64,000 nucleotides of DNA from Hyphomicrobiales bacterium 4NK60-0047b (GTDB lineage Bacteria > Pseudomonadota > Alphaproteobacteria > Rhizobiales > HXMU1428-3). Made by a program: the position numbers and the translations under genes. This document shows, piece after piece, positions 3,429-13,803 of this stretch. Below the pieces are notes generated by a model. That model made no database searches. It saw nothing but the letters and a program-made list of their open reading frames with translations, and was not told the DNA's origin. Within the stretch, counting starts at the first letter, position 1. Every line of letters begins with the position of its first letter. Location of the stretch: assembly GCA_040367435.1 (NCBI GenBank), contig BAABWY010000001.1:558001-622000 (forward strand). The letters are read 5' to 3'.

Positions 3429-4313
3429 TTAGCTTTGAACTGTCAGAGCTTTCAAAATTACACTCAGATTATGTTCGAACATAGCAAGGTAGCTTGTTGC
3501 TGGTCCGCCCTTTTCTGAAAGCGCATCAGAGAACAGTCGTCCTCCAATTTTTAGTCCTGTTTCTTTCGAAATTTGTTTAACAAGTGCAGGACTTGTGATG
3601 TTCTCAACAAAAAGCGCAGCAACTTTCTCACGCTTGAGTTGATCAATCAATTCAGCCAGTTCTTTTGCTGATGGTTCAGCTTCTGTATCGATGCCTACAG
3701 GCGCCAAGAATTTTAGCTGATAAGCGCTTGCAAGGTACCCAAACGCATCATGTGCCGTCACAACAGTCCGGTTATCTTTAGGAAGTGCGCTTAATTTTGC
3801 AACTGTGCTCTTATGCAAATTTTCTAACTTTGCGATATAGGCTGTAGCATTTGCTGTGTAAGTTTTTGCATTTTTAGGGTCAGTCTCTGCCATTGCCTTA
3901 GCAATGTTACGAACATATACCACGCCATTTGTGAGGGCATTCCAAGCATGTGGGTCGACTTCCCCATCCACCTTAAGAGGAGTGATGCCTTGTGTAGCAA
4001 CAAAAACTTTAGCTTTTGTGCCTGATGTATCAATCAGCGTTTTCGACCAGGTCTCAAACCCAAGGCCATTGACAAAAATAATATTAGCTTCAGTGACCGC
4101 ACGAGCATCATCCACATTTGGAGTGTAAACATGAGCATCAGCATCAGGGCCAACAATGGTTGTAACAGTAGCCAGATCACCTGTCACCTGCTGTACCATG
4201 TCGCCAAGTATCGAGAAACTGGCAACAACTTTTAGCTTCTCTGCGTGTGCCGGCGCTATAAATAGGGCAAGCGATACAGTATAAGCTGCAACATAAGAGA
4301 GGAGACGTTTCAT
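3429..4313 (-). CDS. ZnuA/MntA-family metal-binding lipoprotein-like SBP (candidate cobalt or zinc)
   Basis: A 294-residue periplasmic substrate-binding protein of cluster A-I metal ABC transporters. A signal peptide spans 1-24 (PAHA, then EKLKVV). The metal ligands expected in the family are visible as His61 (HVYTPN), His122 (DPHAW), His188 (AHDAFGYL) and Asp263 (FSDALS). This is a three-His/one-Asp set, as in zinc-type proteins rather than the Glu-containing manganese type. The His-rich loop found in many ZnuA proteins is absent. It is the last gene of the ABC operon, 49 bases after the permease. Because the operon follows a cobalamin riboswitch, cobalt is the likelier substrate; zinc remains possible. 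Confidence 0.9.
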   Translation of the reverse strand: MKRLLSYVAAYTVSLALFIAPAHAEKLKVVASFSILGDMVQQVTGDLATVTTIVGPDADAHVYTPNVDDARAVTEANIIFVNGLGFETWSKTLIDTSGTKAKVFVATQGITPLKVDGEVDPHAWNALTNGVVYVRNIAKAMAETDPKNAKTYTANATAYIAKLENLHKSTVAKLSALPKDNRTVVTAHDAFGYLASAYQLKFLAPVGIDTEAEPSAKELAELIDQLKREKVAALFVENITSPALVKQISKETGLKIGGRLFSDALSEKGGPATSYLAMFEHNLSVILKALTVQS

Positions 4314-4362: not shown

Positions 4363-5226
4363 TTACTTTTCTGTAGATGTTTTAAATATGCGCCTTGCTT
4401 GTGATGCCAGCCTAAATCCATGCGGGCCGAACAGTAGGCTGAAAATGAAAATTCCACCTGCTACGAGTACAATTGCAGGGCCTGACGGTACCTTGGGCAC
4501 ATAAAATGAGATAATCAGCCCAGCCCATGAACTGGTAAGGGCCAAAGCAAAAGTAAGAATGAGATAAGATGTGATCGTGGAGACCCAATAGCGCGCTGCC
4601 GTTGCGGGCAGGATCATAAGGCCAACCGCCATAAGCGTGCCAAGGGCCTTAAAGGCGCCAATGAGATTTAAGACCACGAGAAACATGAACAAGTGCCCAA
4701 CAATCCAAGGACGACGTAATTGGCTTTCATAGAAAACCGGATCGATTGTTGAAACAATCAAGGGGCGAAGTATAATTGCGAAGGAAATCAGTGTGATAAC
4801 AGCTGTTGCACCGATAAGCATCAGAGTGTCATTGCCAATACCAAGAATTGAGCCAAATAAAAAACTTTTTAAAGGTACTGCCGAACCAGCAGCGGATAGG
4901 ATGAAGATACCAAGCGCAAGAGCAAGCAGGTACATCGAGGCCAAGCTCGCATCCTCCCTGATAATAGTCTTGTTAGCTAAAAGCACTGAAAAGAGGGCAA
5001 CACTCACACCAGCAATTAAACCACCCACAATCATGGAAAACACAGACAATCCAGCAACCACAAAAGCAATCACGATACCGGGTACAATCGCATGCGCCAT
5101 CGCTTCGCCCGCCAGAGATAACCTCCGCAGAACAAGAAATGCTCCAACTGGGGCAACCGAGAGACTAAGGATAGACGTCGCCAGCAGCGCACGTTTCATA
5201 AAGTCATAATCCAGCCACTCAAACAT
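4363..5226 (-). CDS. Metal ABC transporter permease (ZnuB/MntB family, ABC-3)
   Basis: A 287-residue integral membrane protein with about eight hydrophobic segments, and the family motif LSLAGEAMAHAIVPGI near residue 35, which contacts the ATPase. It forms the channel of the importer whose binding protein and ATPase flank it. The start codon overlaps the end of the ATPase gene by 8 bases, so the two are translationally coupled. Length and layout are normal for the family. Confidence 0.92.
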   Translation of the reverse strand: MFEWLDYDFMKRALLATSILSLSVAPVGAFLVLRRLSLAGEAMAHAIVPGIVIAFVVAGLSVFSMIVGGLIAGVSVALFSVLLANKTIIREDASLASMYLLALALGIFILSAAGSAVPLKSFLFGSILGIGNDTLMLIGATAVITLISFAIILRPLIVSTIDPVFYESQLRRPWIVGHLFMFLVVLNLIGAFKALGTLMAVGLMILPATAARYWVSTITSYLILTFALALTSSWAGLIISFYVPKVPSGPAIVLVAGGIFIFSLLFGPHGFRLASQARRIFKTSTEK

Positions 5227-6001
5227 TTACAAAGACCTTTGATTTCACGTTTGTCTGTTTTACTTCCGCTTGATCGGCATACATAGTCTCTATCCAGCCT
5301 ACTTGGCTTTGCGAGAGATACCCATAATCAACAAGGTTCGTTGGTGTTAAAACTTCGTGTGGCGAACCAAACAACGCTTCGTTGTTGCCAAGCAAAAGTG
5401 CCTTCGTGCAATGTTTAAGAACAGCCGAAAGATCGTGTAAAACAAGAATAATGGCGCGGCCTTGAGCAGCCCAATCATCAATCAGTCCCAAAAGGTAAGA
5501 CTCTGTCGTCTGATCAATTGCCGTAAAAGGTTCATCAAGCAAAATCAAAGGGGCGTTCTGAACAATGGCGCGAGAGAATAAAGCGCGTTGCAACTGTCCA
5601 GCTGATAAAACATGCAGCGGTTCATCCGCGATATGGGCGATGTTGGTTCGCTCTAGAGCAGCCTCGATTAAATCCTGGTCCTCGTTTGTCAGCCAACCAA
5701 CTAAGCCTAACCTTTGCCACGCTCCCATTGCCGCTAGATCACGCACGCGGATTGGAAAACGTCTATCAAATTCTGTTCGCTGTCCGAGATAAGCGATCGA
5801 TTGCGGTTTCCCCCCGGGCCACTCAAGCGTTCCACTAATTGGAGGAATTACATCTAAGAGAGTTTTTGCAAGCGTCGATTTCCCTGAACCATTATGACCA
5901 ACAACGGCAAGGACCTCACCAGGTTCAACCTGAAAAGAAACGGATTTAATAAGCGGCTCACCTGCATAACCAAGTGCGAGCTGCGAGGCTTTGAGTAACA
6001 T
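5219..6001 (-). CDS. Metal ABC transporter ATP-binding protein (ZnuC-like)
   Basis: A 260-residue ABC ATPase. Walker A is GHNGSGKST (about 35-43), the signature is LSAGQ rather than the usual LSGGQ, Walker B is LILLDEP, and the switch histidine lies in VLHDLS. It powers the importer with the following permease and binding protein. It is the first large gene after the cobalamin riboswitch, about 270 bases downstream, with the 36-codon ORF between them. An AGGA box stands 8 bases before the ATG. The substrate is inferred from context only. Confidence 0.92.
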   Translation of the reverse strand: MLLKASQLALGYAGEPLIKSVSFQVEPGEVLAVVGHNGSGKSTLAKTLLDVIPPISGTLEWPGGKPQSIAYLGQRTEFDRRFPIRVRDLAAMGAWQRLGLVGWLTNEDQDLIEAALERTNIAHIADEPLHVLSAGQLQRALFSRAIVQNAPLILLDEPFTAIDQTTESYLLGLIDDWAAQGRAIILVLHDLSAVLKHCTKALLLGNNEALFGSPHEVLTPTNLVDYGYLSQSQVGWIETMYADQAEVKQTNVKSKVFVNV

Positions 6002-6104
6002 AGCTTGTCCTAGAGTTTCGTTGATGAGTGTTTATACACTGGGTTGTCTGCGATCAGAGCGGTGAAGAAAGTCAAACACCAGAGCTGTGAAAGAGATCGT
6101 AAAA

Positions 6105-6215
6105 TCAAAAATCTTTGATTTTTACACTGTCTAGGAACAAGCGTTTTAGCAGTTTAAATGCAATAAAATCGCCGCGGCTATACGGATTTTGGTAAGAAAA
6201 TATCGTCAAAGACAT
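6105..6215 (-). CDS. 36-residue ORF between riboswitch and metal ABC operon
   Basis: The frame starts MSLTIFSYQNPYSRGDFIAF and ends VKIKDF-stop. It has a strong Shine-Dalgarno (AAGGAG, 7 bases before the ATG) and is the first possible translation start after the cobalamin riboswitch. The peptide is basic and mildly hydrophobic, with no metal-binding Cys or His pattern, and does not resemble CbtB. It could be a leader peptide that couples riboswitch control to the ABC genes, or a small subunit. I do not recognise the family. An AT palindrome covers its stop codon. Confidence 0.45.
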   Translation of the reverse strand: MSLTIFSYQNPYSRGDFIAFKLLKRLFLDSVKIKDF

Positions 6216-6230
6216 GTGTTTACTCCTTTA

Positions 6231-6247
6231 AGGGGTCGCCCGCCCCT
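6231..6247 (-). promoter_or_regulatory. Hairpin in the riboswitch expression platform
   Basis: AGGGG and CCCCT pair around a 7-base loop directly before the AAGGAG ribosome site of the 36-codon ORF. It lies between the riboswitch aptamer and the first start codon and has no T-run. This fits control of translation start rather than termination; that is inference. Confidence 0.4.
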
Positions 6248-6270
6248 CATGATGGAATTAATAATAAAAG

Positions 6271-6471
6271 ACTTGGCAGGTTTTCTGGCTTACGGTTATG
6301 GGCAACTTACTCACCTTCCCAGCTAAATAAAGCCAGTGGTATATTCGAGTGTGCCAACCGTTTACAGTTGCGAGGACAGCCCCGGTCTTGCTGAAAATAT
6401 CTTACTGATAAATATTTACAGCGCACCGAGTTCCCTTTTAAGCCCGACCCATAAGGGTCAAGAGACCAAGT
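6271..6471 (-). promoter_or_regulatory. Cobalamin riboswitch
   Basis: On the minus strand the aptamer runs from ACTTGG (6471-6466) to CCAAGT (6276-6271), which pair as P1. In order it contains AAAAGGGAACTCGGTGCG, GACCGGGGCTG, the conserved CGCAACTGT core, and GTAAGCCAGAAAACCTGCC, the B12-box end. Spacing is about 201 nt, normal for the class. Binding of adenosylcobalamin normally turns off downstream genes for B12 or cobalt uptake. Here those genes are the 36-codon ORF and the ZnuABC-type importer, which argues that the importer carries cobalt. Confidence 0.93.
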
Positions 6472-6949
6472 GTTTGCAACCTAGTGAAGGTTACACGAAA
6501 TGACAAGTTAAATATTTTTGGTTGTATATATAGACGTTACTTTCGCCTACTAGCTTTAGTGAATTAGGTCACACATATTTTAGGGAAGCGAACTTTCAAA
6601 CCGTTATGAATTGAAGATCCTGCCAGGGCTACATTTAGCACGTAAGTGACCATCTCAATCAAAGACTATTAAGATCACTAAGTGACCCAAGGCGGAAACG
6701 AAAGCACGTTGATGAAACGCACAGTTTTCTGTAAAAAACCACTCATAAATGAGCGGAGGTAATCTCTCCTCAAATTTATACATCGATCACTGCCTGTTTG
6801 TAAGCAAAACCAAGCGTATCTTAACAACAGATAAGTTTGTTGCCGGGGTGCTTCATATAATATTCCCCAACTTCCCAAACAAACGGTTCGACATTTTTAT
6901 TATCTAATCTTGAAGCATCTTCAGGAGGTTAATTTTGTCTGGATGATTG
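6472..6949. other. Region of gene debris upstream of the riboswitch
   Basis: No intact gene. The minus strand from 6928 down to 6821 keeps a 35-codon protein-like frame without a start (contains NVEPFVWEVGEYYMKHPG) that I cannot assign. The promoter for the riboswitch transcript must lie just above 6471. The stretch joins the frmA fragment and looks like eroded coding DNA. Confidence 0.45.
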
Positions 6950-7079: not shown

Positions 7080-7732
7080 CTAATGTAAATTTTCTCGATG
7101 TAACTTTTTATCTCGAGGGCTAATGGGGGCAATGACAAGTACAAAGTGTGTTTCTTTAGCACCTTCAGGCAGGGACGAAGAGGAGAATAAGCCGAGCTTT
7201 GGCAGCTCTTGCAAAAACTTATCACGAAGCAAGATTGGAGCCCCGATCGGTACGGTGAAAATATCTTTATGGTCTCTCCCTTCTGTTGAGAAACCATATT
7301 GCGCATCTGTACCTCGATAAGTACAAACAAGACGAGGCAGAGCTGCATCAATGTGGAATTCTTGACAGACATTTGTGTTGACGATATCGATGCGGACTTG
7401 GAGGCACGATGCATGAAAATGCTTGAAAACACCTTAGCAAGAGCAGCCGTATCATCTATCAGCCTGTCTCGTTCACTACAATTCGGAGTGCCATATTTCT
7501 TGCATTTATGGAGCATCGCTTCACGAAGATTTTCAGGGGATAATTTTAGCAGTGCTTTTGGTAACTGTTCTGGCGTTAAGCCATTGATCCAAGATAGAAA
7601 ACTCGGCAATGGGTTGCGCCTCCATATCGCGACGGCACAATCCGAGCGATGAATTGGAAAAAGGCCTTCTGGTGTGTCTGTTTCAAATACGGGCCCTAAA
7701 GAATGCATCGCAGTGTTTCGAACAAACATCAT
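7080..7732 (-). pseudogene. DUF1826-family gene broken by a frameshift
   Basis: The first part reads from 7732 (contains SDCAVAIWRRNPLPSFLSW and DDTAALAKVFSSIF) to about 7410. The continuation is in another minus-strand frame: LQVRIDIVNTNVCQEFHID, then LVCTYRGTDAQYGFS and TVPIGAPILLRD, with a stop at 7082-7080. Together they make a normal DUF1826 protein of about 215 residues, so a net one-base deletion (or two-base insertion) near 7405-7425 broke the gene. DUF1826 genes often lie beside CobW/ZigA-type zinc GTPases and are linked with zinc limitation; that is family knowledge, and the function is unproven. A sequencing error could mimic this. Confidence 0.72.
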
Positions 7733-9075: not shown

Positions 9076-9348
9076 ATGTCTCACCTTAGTCGCAATAAGT
9101 CAAAATTGATTACCCGGCTTCGCCGGATTAAAGGTCAGGTAGAAGGAGTTGAACGCTCTCTGGAACAAGAAGCGGCTTGTGGTGAAATACTCAGGCAGAT
9201 TGCTTCTGTACGTGGTGCGATTACAGGTCTAACGAACGAAGTTCTTGTGGAGCATATGCGTAATCACTTGGTTAATGCCCCAACAGCATCAGAACGCGAA
9301 CAAGCCACTACCGAAATGATCGAAATTTTAAAATCATATATGAAATGA
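9076..9348 (+). CDS. dmeR: DmeR: CsoR/RcnR-family Co/Ni-responsive repressor
   Basis: A 90-residue all-helical metal sensor. His3, Cys35, His60 and His64 are all present (MSH, AACGE, VEHMRNHL), the set of ligands used by nickel/cobalt-sensing RcnR. FrmR-type sensors lack one of these. The motif RLRRIKGQVEGVERSLE is typical of the DNA-binding face. It lies between a palindromic operator and dmeF, with 23 bases to dmeF, so it probably represses its own operon until cobalt or nickel binds. Confidence 0.88.
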   Translation: MSHLSRNKSKLITRLRRIKGQVEGVERSLEQEAACGEILRQIASVRGAITGLTNEVLVEHMRNHLVNAPTASEREQATTEMIEILKSYMK

Positions 9349-9371: not shown

Positions 9372-10310
9372 ATGAGCAACCAAAAATTATCAGAACTCAC
9401 TCACGAGCATATTTTTCTTAACACAAATCAAGAACGCAACGAGCGAAAGGTTTGGCTGGTTATTTTACTGACCGCTACAATGATGGTTATTGAAATCATC
9501 GCGGGACATTGGTTCGGCTCTATGGCTTTACTCGCCGATGGTTGGCATATGTCGACACACGCAGGGGCAATGTTGATTGCCGTTCTGGCTTATCGCTATG
9601 CTCGGCAGAATGCGAATAATTCTAAATTCAGTTTTGGTACAGGCAAAGTTGGTGACTTAGCGGGTTTTGCAAGTGCTGTGATACTGTGTCTGATCGCATT
9701 ATTAATTGGCTGGGAAAGTTTGTTACGTCTTGTTGATCCTGTTTCAATCAACTTTGAGCAAGCAATTATGGTTGCTGTAGTTGGACTTATCGTCAATTTA
9801 CTTAGCGCGTGGTTATTACGTGACGACCATCATCATGGCCATAGTCACGCACATCATCACCATGGACATGATCACAATAACGGTCATGGTTCAGACAACA
9901 ATTTACGAGCAGCATACCTCCATGTATTAGCAGATGCTTTAACATCTGTCCTCGCCATTGTGGCCTTACTGTTAGGGCGTGCTTACGGCTGGTTCTGGGC
10001 AGATCCAATTATGGGCATAGTTGGCACTCTTGTTATCTTACGTTGGTCGTGGAGACTTATCCAAGACACAGGGGGAATTCTACTAGATCGTGTACCCGAA
10101 GAGGGGCATTTAGAAAGTAAAATTCGTGAAGCTCTTGAGAGTGAAATAGATAAAGTCATAGACCTTCACATTTGGCAAATTGGACAGGGACATTACTCGG
10201 TGATTGTTTCAATAGCCTCAACGGCTCCTAAAAGTTTGTTGGATTATAAAACTGCACTTAAACAATTTAACCACGTATCCCATACGACTGTGGAAGTGCA
10301 TAAAATTTAA
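9372..10310 (+). CDS. dmeF: DmeF: CDF-family cobalt/nickel efflux transporter
   Basis: A 312-residue cation diffusion facilitator of the inner membrane with six TM segments. Binding-site motifs are ADGWHMSTH (Asp56, His59) in TM2 and HVLAD (His184, Asp188) in TM5. A His-rich cytoplasmic loop lies at about 151-174 between TM4 and TM5. A C-terminal ferredoxin-like domain starts near residue 225. It exports Co2+ (and Ni2+ or Cd2+ in some relatives) in exchange for protons. It is co-transcribed with dmeR and intact, unlike most neighbours. Its presence beside a cobalamin-controlled importer suggests paired cobalt uptake and release. Confidence 0.92.
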   Translation: MSNQKLSELTHEHIFLNTNQERNERKVWLVILLTATMMVIEIIAGHWFGSMALLADGWHMSTHAGAMLIAVLAYRYARQNANNSKFSFGTGKVGDLAGFASAVILCLIALLIGWESLLRLVDPVSINFEQAIMVAVVGLIVNLLSAWLLRDDHHHGHSHAHHHHGHDHNNGHGSDNNLRAAYLHVLADALTSVLAIVALLLGRAYGWFWADPIMGIVGTLVILRWSWRLIQDTGGILLDRVPEEGHLESKIREALESEIDKVIDLHIWQIGQGHYSVIVSIASTAPKSLLDYKTALKQFNHVSHTTVEVHKI

Positions 10311-11427: not shown

Positions 11428-12198
11428 TCATGCGACATCCAGCGGAGTGACCGTTAGTTTGTCATCTATAAACTTAATATCTGCACGATAACCGTAGACC
11501 TGCTCTAAAGCTGATTTTGTAAGAACATTCTCAGCAGTCCCTTTAATAAAAACTTCTCCCTCAAATAACATGACTATTTCGTCACAAAACCGCACGGCGA
11601 GGGACAAATCATGCAGAGCAATAATTGCTCCCATTCCTCTCAAAGTTGAATGGCGCAACAGCTTAAGCAATCTAATTTGGTGGGCTGGATCAAGGGCAGC
11701 GGTTGGCTCGTCAGCTAACAAAAATTTTGGTTGCTGCGCCAAAGCTCTTGCCATAAGAACACGAGCAAATTCGCCACCAGATAGTTTTAAAGCTGAACGT
11801 TTGTGCCATTCAGATATGTCCATGAGAGCCATGGCGTTCTCAATAGCTTGCGTGTCAGTTTCTGAGAGAAGAGAAAAGGATCGGCGATAGGGATGTCTGC
11901 CTAGCGATACTAGATCTTCAACCGTCAAGTTCCAGTGAAGTTTTTTATCCTGAGGAAGGTAAGCAATTTTTTGCGAACGTTTTTTTAAAGACATTTTACT
12001 GAGCTCTAGGCCATCAAGTTTGACGTGACCAGACGCAGATAAATCCAAACCGGCAAGGACACGCAGCAAGGTTTATTTCCCGCCCCCGTTTGGTCCAATG
12101 AGACCTATCAGCTTGCCAGCTTCCACTTTGATCTCAACATCACGTAGTATCTCTTGCTTCCCTTTTGAGACACAAACATTGGTTGTTTCAAGTATCAT
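11428..12198 (-). pseudogene. FecE/BtuD-type ABC ATPase with a stop codon inside Walker A
   Basis: The full frame starts at ATG 12198, overlaps the permease stop as ATGA, and reads MILETTNVCVSKGKQEIL and so on to GPNGGGK, then TAA at 12075-12073, then TLLRVLAGLDL. The stop replaces the Ser of the P-loop (TCA to TAA is one change). The rest is intact: LSGGE signature, LLADEPTAALDP Walker B, ALHDLS switch. A restart at TTG 12069 would give a 213-residue protein without a P-loop, unable to bind ATP normally. It belongs to the siderophore/haem/cobalamin importer family. Confidence 0.82.
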
Positions 12199-13206
12199 GC
12201 TGCAAGCTCCCGTCTCATTTTTAAAACCAAAATCAGAAAGAAAGGGGCTCCTATAAGAGATGTTAAAACGCCGAGTTTTAATTCATGTCCGGGTGTGAAT
12301 ATTCGAACTGCACAATCAGCAGACAGCATGAATACAGCGCCGCCAAAAATACTAAGTGTGATTAATTTACTAGGATGCCCTCCAGAAAAAGGCCTTAAAA
12401 TGTGCGGAGCAACCAAACCAACAAATCCTATGGCACCAGCAACAGATGTCGCAGCACCAACCGAAAGTGCAATGCCACAAACAAGTCTTGTTTGTACACG
12501 TTTTAAATCAACCCCAAGACTATGGGCAACTTCCTCTCCAAGGCTCATCCCATCTAGATCTCGCCCTAATGACCAAATGAGCGCACGACCTATAAGAATA
12601 AAAGGGGCAGCAAGATAAAGATGGATCAAACTACGATCTGCTAAAGATCCCATCATCCAGAACACAATTTCCATGATCGCAAACGGGTTTGAGTACATAG
12701 TAAGGGCCAGGCTTGTGAGTGCGCCAGCAAAGGCGCTGACAGCAACACCAGATAGAATTAAGGTAAAGAGGACTGTTATGCTTACCTGCAAGAAAATATA
12801 CCGCAAGTACAGCCGAAAATGCTCCTGCAATTCCGGACAAGGGAATGGCAAGTGCGTAGGTAGCACTCAAACCAGAATAGAAAGCAAGCACAGCACCAAG
12901 TGACGCTCCTGAAGAAACGCCTATTAATCCTGGTTCGGTCAGCGGGTTACGTAAATATCCCTGTAGTGCGGCACCTGATGCACCAAGCGATGCCCCAATG
13001 AATAGCACCAGTAAAGTTCTTGGCAATCGAACTTCATATATCACCAACCATATGGCTCTGTTCACATCTTCTCTACCAAGGAGGCCCTTAATTAATTGAG
13101 AAACAGTGAGATCTGCTGGCCCTAAGAGGAGTGAGGTAAAAAATACCCCTATTATCTTTGTCAAACAAAGGGCTGTGAAAGCTATGGCAAATCCATCCGG
13201 CAGCAT
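12195..13206 (-). pseudogene. FecCD/BtuC-type ABC permease, frameshifted and N-terminally truncated
   Basis: Two overlapping minus-strand frames together encode one permease. The first has SLLLGPADLTVSQLIKGLLG, RLPRTLLVLFIGASLGASGA and LRNPLTEPGLIGVSSGASLGA. The second continues SITVLFTLILSGVAVSAFAG to GHELKLGVLTSLIGAPFF. The break is near 12775-12790. The first 24 or so residues after the ATG at 13206 are not permease sequence: they are the antisense of the recombinase fragment, so true similarity begins near 13134. No binding protein or receptor remains to show whether cobalamin, haem or a siderophore was carried. Confidence 0.82.
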
Positions 13207-13770
13207 AAAATTGAAGGAGAGTTTGAAGCTCTGCTAAAAGATATGCGCCCGACCAAAGGACTTGTAACAATCATCAGGAATATGTTTAGTGAGGCATGGA
13301 ACCAGCGGCTTGCACAAACTAATGAAATTCGAAAATCCCTGCGCCGTGACATTCTGAAGCTCGAAAAACAGATTGATAGTTTTCTCGATCGTCTTGTCGA
13401 AACAACAAGTCCAACCGCTGTCAAAGCGTATGAACGAAAAATAGAAAAATTGGAAAAAGAGAAGCTTTTAACCTCTGAAAAACTGGAAAAAAGCTGCACT
13501 CCGAAGGTACCAGCAAACGACATGCTAGAACTTTCTCTTAAATTCCTGTCAAACTCTTGTAAAATATGGAATTCTGGTGACATAAATTTGCAAAAACTAG
13601 TACTCAGACTGGTCTTTTCAGAGCGTTTACCTTACCACCGGAATGAAGGGTATAGAACTCTGCAAGTCTCTGTTCCATTTGAACTTTTTGGTTCTTTTAA
13701 TGAGAATTGTAAAATGGTGCGGGCGGCCGGACTTGAACCGGCACGATCGTTTCCAATCGAGGGATTTTAA
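13135..13770 (+). pseudogene. 3' fragment of a large serine recombinase
   Basis: An open plus-strand frame without a catalytic N-terminus. It starts in the zinc-ribbon region (YYLCQTKGCESYGKSIR), then IEGEFEALLKDMRP, then a coiled coil rich in Lys and Glu (about 13360-13490), and ends FPIEGF inside tRNA-Leu. This is the order of the C-terminal half of large serine integrases. The catalytic Ser domain is missing and is replaced to the left by the antisense permease gene, with the junction near 13132-13137. The remnant beside a tRNA marks an old integration site. Confidence 0.8.
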
Positions 13771-13803
13771 GTCCCTTGTGTCTACCAATTCCACCACGCC
13801 CGC
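13715..13803 (-). tRNA. tRNA-Leu (anticodon UAA)
   Basis: The minus strand reads GCGGGCGTGGTGGAATTGG and on, closing with GCCCGC plus encoded ACCA. The 7-bp acceptor stem GCGGGCG/CGCCCGC, the TTCAAGTC T-loop, the long variable arm and the anticodon loop CTTAAAA give Leu-UAA. The 3' half overlaps the end of the recombinase frame, as expected if this tRNA was an attachment site. Confidence 0.95.

Follow-up and report, generated by a model that had tools for sequence, protein, structure and literature searches.

A complete cobalamin (B12) riboswitch stands in front of an ABC-3 metal importer operon of the ZnuABC/AztABC type in Hyphomicrobiales bacterium 4NK60-0047b, and the same arrangement recurs in a well-supported clade of related operons. 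The operon probably encodes a cobalt importer that is dedicated to de novo B12 synthesis and is switched off by B12. We infer cobalt as the substrate from this regulation, from the link to the cobalt chelatase CobN and from gene context, and cobalt import is the best reading of the operon. The operon lies in a 64,000-nt stretch of contig BAABWY010000001.1 (positions 558,001 to 622,000), which is referred to as the window.

A B12 riboswitch precedes an ABC-3 importer operon

The operon and its leader contain the following features, given in window coordinates.

6258 to 6485, minus strand: cobalamin (B12) riboswitch aptamer, RF00174 (cmscan 99.5 bits, full model 1-189)
6232 to 6246, minus strand: expression-platform hairpin GGGG-CGGGCGA-CCCC (from sequence; predicted on folding 6195-6255)
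6223 to 6226, minus strand: Shine-Dalgarno sequence GGAG, serving the 36-aa ORF (from sequence)
6105 to 6215, minus strand: 36-aa ORF, degenerate remnant of a small one-helix protein (listed ORF; no family HMM match)
5219 to 6001, minus strand: ABC ATPase (nearest model AztA, 197.8 bits, below the cut-off of 220)
4363 to 5226, minus strand: ABC-3 permease (PF00950, 159.6 bits; nearest model AztB, 205.8 bits, below the cut-off of 280)
3429 to 4313, minus strand: ZnuA-family metal-binding protein (PF01297, 273.7 bits; nearest model AztC, 281.6 bits, below the cut-off of 350)

The aptamer matches the Rfam model end to end (gathering threshold 31.5 bits, E 1.2e-23) and was recovered again in a whole-genome search. 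The first-pass annotation, which had described a complete aptamer on the minus strand before an ABC-3 ATPase, permease and binding protein and had made its proposal depend on the RF00174 covariance model, is confirmed on this point. The range it gave, 4363-6471, holds the ATPase and the permease but cuts off 14 bases of the aptamer and omits the binding protein that its text describes. The remnant 36-aa ORF, and the hairpin and Shine-Dalgarno sequence at 6223-6246, had been missed.

The hairpin sits just before the Shine-Dalgarno sequence of the small gene, and its loop GCGGG is complementary to CUCGC of the aptamer, forming a possible kissing loop. Of 62 riboswitch loci, 54 have GCGGG within 75 nt past the aptamer in our own search. 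Kissing loops and ribosome-site control are described for known B12 riboswitches in the available text of PMC7689651; by analogy, B12 should shut translation here in the same way. Specifically, plentiful adenosylcobalamin would bind the leader RNA, and the hairpin loop before the first gene would dock onto the aptamer, shutting the nearby ribosome site. When B12 is low, the operon would be translated and the periplasmic protein would hand Co(II) to the permease.

The protein products comprise a PF00950 permease, a PF01297 binding protein (its sole Pfam match) and an ABC ATPase, as expected for an ABC-3 importer. The binding protein is not BtuF-like. It has a site of three His and one Asp (H60, H121, H187 and D262) and no His-rich loop. 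AztC has the same ligands, so the site does not tell cobalt from zinc. The riboswitch alone would also fit a gene for B12 uptake, but a cobalamin or corrinoid importer is hard to reconcile with a binding protein of the small-metal ZnuA family whose three His and Asp are intact, in hosts that make B12 themselves; we regard it as highly improbable.

The riboswitch and the operon order are shared by a clade of relatives

Orthologues of the operon occur in six other genomes at 72-93% identity, the next best matches being at or below 53% (61 genomes searched). Five of these six operons have the Rfam riboswitch in front, and the contig of the sixth ends inside the operon. In the order to which the window belongs, 397 genomes were scored; after the eleventh, the best score drops from 487 to 346 bits. 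Named species genomes were scanned as well and yielded 501 relatives, of which the best 80 (L056-L135) were kept and scored with a model built from six riboswitches. Among these best 80 of 501, 62 have the riboswitch in front, 8 lie on contigs that end too soon and 10 lack it; since the genomes are related, and many of them are MAGs, the counts should not be read as independent events, and absences may reflect gaps. The recurrence of riboswitch and ABC-3 genes in other genomes, for which the first-pass annotation had suggested looking, is therefore present, including in Ruegeria, Roseibium, Tritonibacter, Shimia and others. In L135 the riboswitch lies directly before the binding protein gene, and the contig has no ATPase match.

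Rfam confirms the riboswitch in the ten positive loci checked (L036, L038-L041, L062, L069, L070, L132 and L135). It finds none in the ten no-riboswitch loci, which do have upstream DNA, and a missed riboswitch was therefore rejected for them. Second riboswitch-like matches were seen near some importer operons (L104, 11026-11208; L109, 10954-11135; L078, L079 and L080, near 7416-7719 on the minus strand), directly downstream of the operon or divergent from it.

The concatenated tree covers 103 operons and separates the B12 clade (73 rows) from a sister group (30 rows), each with support of 100. The stem of the B12 clade is long, with 1.06 changes per column as the tree was rooted for drawing. 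The ten members without the riboswitch fall at four separate points inside the B12 clade: six form one group (support 99; five carry the label Gammaproteobacteria and one Rhodospirillales), L106 pairs with L108 (support 100), and L089 and L061 each stand alone. One gain with four losses and several gains of the riboswitch both fit this pattern. The operons of L106 and L108 are very similar and come from MAGs labelled Latescibacterota and Gemmatimonadetes; further clade operons occur in Anaerolineae and Gemmatimonadaceae (L066 and L102). Either mis-binning or recent transfer could explain these.

In the binding-protein tree, the genome's own ZnuA, 5KZJ (AztC), 8SVC (ZniA) and 3HH8 (which we take to be MtsA) all fall outside an 84-row clade that contains the window protein, with support of 94. 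We take 5KZJ as AztC because its sequence matches 5W56/5W57, and 5W57 is named AztC in the available text of PMC12183173. Both trees were made by a quick method; we base the conclusion on the concatenated one, whose frames were taken from tblastn. Seven rows of the binding-protein tree (L011, L140, L145, L146, L149, L158 and L160) group falsely on long branches, most probably through use of the wrong strand, and were ignored; L029 is a partial row. The binding protein thus does not group with the four reference proteins as a ZnuABC protein under Zur would, and the leader of the window has no Zur box (best match 4 mismatches). The placement that the first-pass annotation had named as counter-evidence, within proven zinc ZnuA and behind a Zur box, is not what was found.

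The three His of the site are kept in all 73 clade proteins (63 with the riboswitch, including the window, and 10 without). The Asp is kept in 71 of them; of the other two, one has Glu and one a gap. At A211 and S89 the six related no-riboswitch proteins differ with some regularity; L106 and L108 deviate and break the pattern, so no metal code is claimed from these positions.

A small one-helix membrane protein is encoded between leader and ATPase

An unannotated short ORF, often of about 45-60 aa, lies between the leader and the ATPase gene and ends in a single hydrophobic helix, following approximately the pattern LTE.S...L...A..S.LW..I..VI. An HMM, seeded from 23 sequences matched by a strict regular expression and then iterated, finds it in 69 of 72 clade operons (71 loci plus the window; the seeds count by construction); every match is on the coding strand, and none of 4056 control frames matches. 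The differences at codon positions 1, 2 and 3 number 292, 117 and 481 in 37 pairs from the 23 sequences; thus the ORF behaves as a translated gene. The small protein matches no Pfam or NCBIfam family above cut-off, and in two plasmid records it is entered as a hypothetical protein (44-46 aa). In Ruegeria- and Roseibium-type loci, such as L069 (8016-8208) and L074 (8003-8199), more look-alike short ORFs, with SD-like GGAGG before ATG, are located between the riboswitch and the small membrane gene and are perhaps another leader element.

The three operons without an HMM match are those of the window, its sibling L056 and L106. In the window, the Shine-Dalgarno sequence, the start and the first part of the gene remain, and the helix is out of frame. 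The lack of an intact small gene in the window is a weak point for the cobalt reading. It also leaves 256 bases between aptamer and ATPase with only the degenerate 36-aa ORF in between, as would be expected if the riboswitch had belonged to a lost gene and stood before the transporter by chance. This explanation was rejected, with next to no probability left to it, on the conserved order in 62 relatives and the conserved small gene that occupies the gap in 69 of 72 operons.

The sister group has a helix ORF in the same place. Specifically, it ends 0-24 bases before the inferred ATPase start in all 26 sister operons scanned, while 41 of 1040 random positions pass the same filter. The profiles of the two sets align over 26 columns with a probability of 88%, and the B12-clade HMM reaches E <0.01 in 10 of the 26 sister operons. 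The two small proteins may therefore be related, a moderate link that is strengthened by their equal position. Two plasmid-borne aztABCD operons have no small helix ORF. At least five His are found in 16 of 26 sister small proteins, mostly as a tail before the helix, and in 0 of 69 B12-clade ones; these counts vary with the choice of start codon. Those nested members without the riboswitch that have the small protein fall among these 69, and so did not regain the His tail.

The riboswitch goes with CobN and its absence with zinc-type neighbours

CobN was sought in 40 of the 62 riboswitch genomes and in all ten no-riboswitch genomes; 39 of the former and 1 of the latter have a match above its cut-off (Fisher p 3.9e-8, kinship ignored). 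Nearly all tested hosts of riboswitch operons thus make B12 de novo. The exceptions are L062, which has the riboswitch and no CobN, and L061, which has CobN and no riboswitch. Two loci lie beside B12 synthesis genes: L132 adjoins cobO, cobQ, cobD, cobU, cobT and cobS, and the same cob gene clusters adjoin L134, whose upstream part is missing.

The surroundings of the operons differ in a corresponding manner. Within 6 kb, 9 of 10 no-riboswitch operons have a gene for a COG0523 GTPase, a WD40 protein (queries from L111) or a Fur-family protein (query from L108); none of the 62 riboswitch operons does, a count that is limited by flank length (at least 6 kb downstream in 48 of 62, at least 2 kb in 54 of 62). 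Zinc-type neighbours are also present at L102, a cut locus. The no-riboswitch loci vary: L123 is surrounded by Fur, HisI, CysS, ThrRS and COG0523 genes, L108 has only the Fur-family gene within 6 kb, the zinc neighbour of L122 is a single COG0523-like match 4 kb upstream (41% identity), and L089 has no zinc-type neighbours. In the available text of PMC2770081, the kinds of genes found around L123 are listed as Zur-linked, and a COG0523 subfamily is linked to WD40 and znuABC. In four loci (L076, L092, L093 and L105), a shared gene cluster downstream of the binding protein looks nickel/cobalt permease-like by eye; Pfam gives no match for the L093 copy.

A Zur box with at most 2 mismatches is found in 0 of 61 riboswitch loci. 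The scan worked on its positive control, the separate ZnuA of the own genome: this protein has a His-rich loop, and its gene is preceded by two Zur boxes, with 1 and 2 mismatches. Of the 30 sister operons with a located ATPase, 8 have an exact Zur box, 12 more have one with at most 2 mismatches and 10 have none; COG0523 lies beside 20 of 32 sister loci and WD40 beside 14 of 32. Only L111 among the ten no-riboswitch loci has a Zur box; for the other nine, the case for zinc control comes from their gene neighbours.

Because some clade members lie in zinc-starvation-type neighbourhoods, the transporter may carry zinc too. The importer might then be promiscuous for zinc and cobalt, the regulator alone deciding which metal need it serves: cobalt under the riboswitch in B12 makers, zinc under zinc regulation elsewhere. 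The identical ligands (His in 73 of 73, Asp in 71 of 73) and the nested members in zinc-type neighbourhoods such as that of L123 are consistent with this, as is the published link of the COG0523/WD40/znuABC setting, with such paralogues, to Zur (PMC2770081, available text). The long stem of the clade and the absence of the His-rich tail from all 69 small proteins suggest more than a change of regulator, and we consider pure promiscuity unlikely.

MetE is a zinc enzyme, and a zinc importer induced by B12 shortage could feed it in place of the B12-dependent methionine synthase. B12 riboswitches also control B12-independent isozymes (PMC3766115, available text), which would suit such a role. The riboswitch genomes are B12 makers, though, and full MetE (TIGR01371 over cut-off) is found neither in the own genome, where there is no match, nor in any of 40 riboswitch genomes, 12 of which have partial matches below cut-off. 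The MetE explanation was rejected as very unlikely, and cobalt import remains the preferred reading.

Own genome and neighbouring genes

The own genome (3.47 Mb, 99.67% complete) encodes CobN (1522.7 bits, cut-off 822) and has two cobalamin riboswitches. The other one (C1:866459-866702; L002 1501-1744) precedes a gene for a CbiM-family permease (PF01891, 55.6 bits, cut-off 23.1), behind which the next large ORF is on the opposite strand. Zinc is covered in this genome by the separate ZnuA with its His-rich loop and two Zur boxes.

Two metal-related genes lie close to the importer in the window.

9372 to 10310: DmeF (465 bits, cut-off 250)
9076 to 9348: PF02583 metal-repressor family gene (below the NCBIfam FrmR and RcnR cut-offs)

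DmeF passes its cut-off, and the description of the second gene as its repressor is only plausible. The first-pass annotation had joined DmeF and the importer into a matched set for cobalt uptake and release. We rejected this pairing, because it is not conserved: tblastn at E 1e-10 gives no row for DmeF and its neighbour around 80 related operons, including that of the 93% identical sibling L056, some of the contigs being short.

Elsewhere in the window, a BtuC/FecCD-type importer on the minus strand (11428-13206) looks decayed, with its permease split over two overlapping ORFs and an ATPase ORF without the N-terminal part; a DUF6925 gene adjoins it. A tRNA gene lies at 13718-13803 on the minus strand, overlapped by an ORF that is probably spurious.

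Comparison with known transporters

The same kind of control is known from CbtJKL of Sinorhizobium meliloti, a Co(II) ABC importer under a B12 riboswitch, whose knock-out grows only with added cobalt (PMC7689651, available text). CbtJKL is described there as BtuF-like, whereas the subunits in the window are of the ABC-3/ZnuA families; the two are thus analogues and not one family.

CbiMNQO likewise combines cobalt uptake, a link to the B12 riboswitch and a small membrane subunit, CbiN, but is an ECF transporter, unlike the importer in the window.

AztABC, which provides the closest curated models for all three subunits and shares the three-His-and-Asp site, belongs to AztABCD of Paracoccus denitrificans, a Zur-controlled zinc system with the chaperone AztD (PMC5387054, available text). 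In contrast, the window has no Zur box and its subunits all score below the AztA, AztB and AztC cut-offs, that of AztC being a weak discriminator since five sister-group binding proteins scanned also fall below it. ZniCBA of Rhizobium leguminosarum, experimentally a Zur-dependent zinc system, and Klebsiella ZniA (8SVC) are relatives in the same binding-protein family as the window protein, and the 8SVC row falls among the sister-group rows; the available text of PMC12183173 mentions no riboswitch for ZniCBA, unlike the operon in the window.

A B12-riboswitch cobalt ABC importer of another family is therefore known, and the ABC-3 version is apparently new: we found no report of a B12-controlled ABC-3/ZnuABC importer in the literature searched, and earlier comparative work on B12 regulation (2003) or on Ni/Co transporters (2006) possibly mentions one.

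A probable change of regulation from zinc to B12

The sister group has Zur boxes and zinc-type neighbours, so a change from zinc to B12 at the base of the clade is the simplest reading. The most likely ancestors of the clade are zinc importers controlled by Zur; acquisition of the riboswitch would have been accompanied by loss of the Zur box, of the neighbouring COG0523 and WD40 genes and of the small protein's His-rich tail. A return to the zinc setting likely followed in lineages without CobN, where B12 is no longer made. The first-pass proposal that a ZnuABC-type system was re-wired or evolved for cobalt is thus supported in part, as B12 control is conserved, goes with CobN and contrasts with a Zur-type sister group; cobalt itself remains the probable substrate.

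A fuller account is offered tentatively, at somewhat short of even chances: capture of the B12 riboswitch would have converted the clade from zinc to cobalt, the small helix protein would be a fourth subunit whose His tail serves zinc and was lost with the move to cobalt, and lineages that ceased B12 synthesis would have lost the riboswitch and rejoined the zinc regulon.

Implications

B12 makers need cobalt, the metal inside B12. According to the available text of PMC4771312, a recognised cobalt uptake system was found in only 76% of 42 Roseobacter genomes, and all 42 have at least one TroA-type binding protein that is placed only to superfamily. The B12-controlled importer in Ruegeria, Roseibium, Tritonibacter and Shimia could fill part of that gap. 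Where plasmid-borne relatives with less than 60% identity are annotated, most are called zinc or metal transporters, and members of the B12 clade may be mis-labelled in this way too. The nested members in zinc contexts have the same ligands, which makes metal choice testable on close relatives; if the account given here is true, the swap of regulator would be a natural experiment on metal choice.
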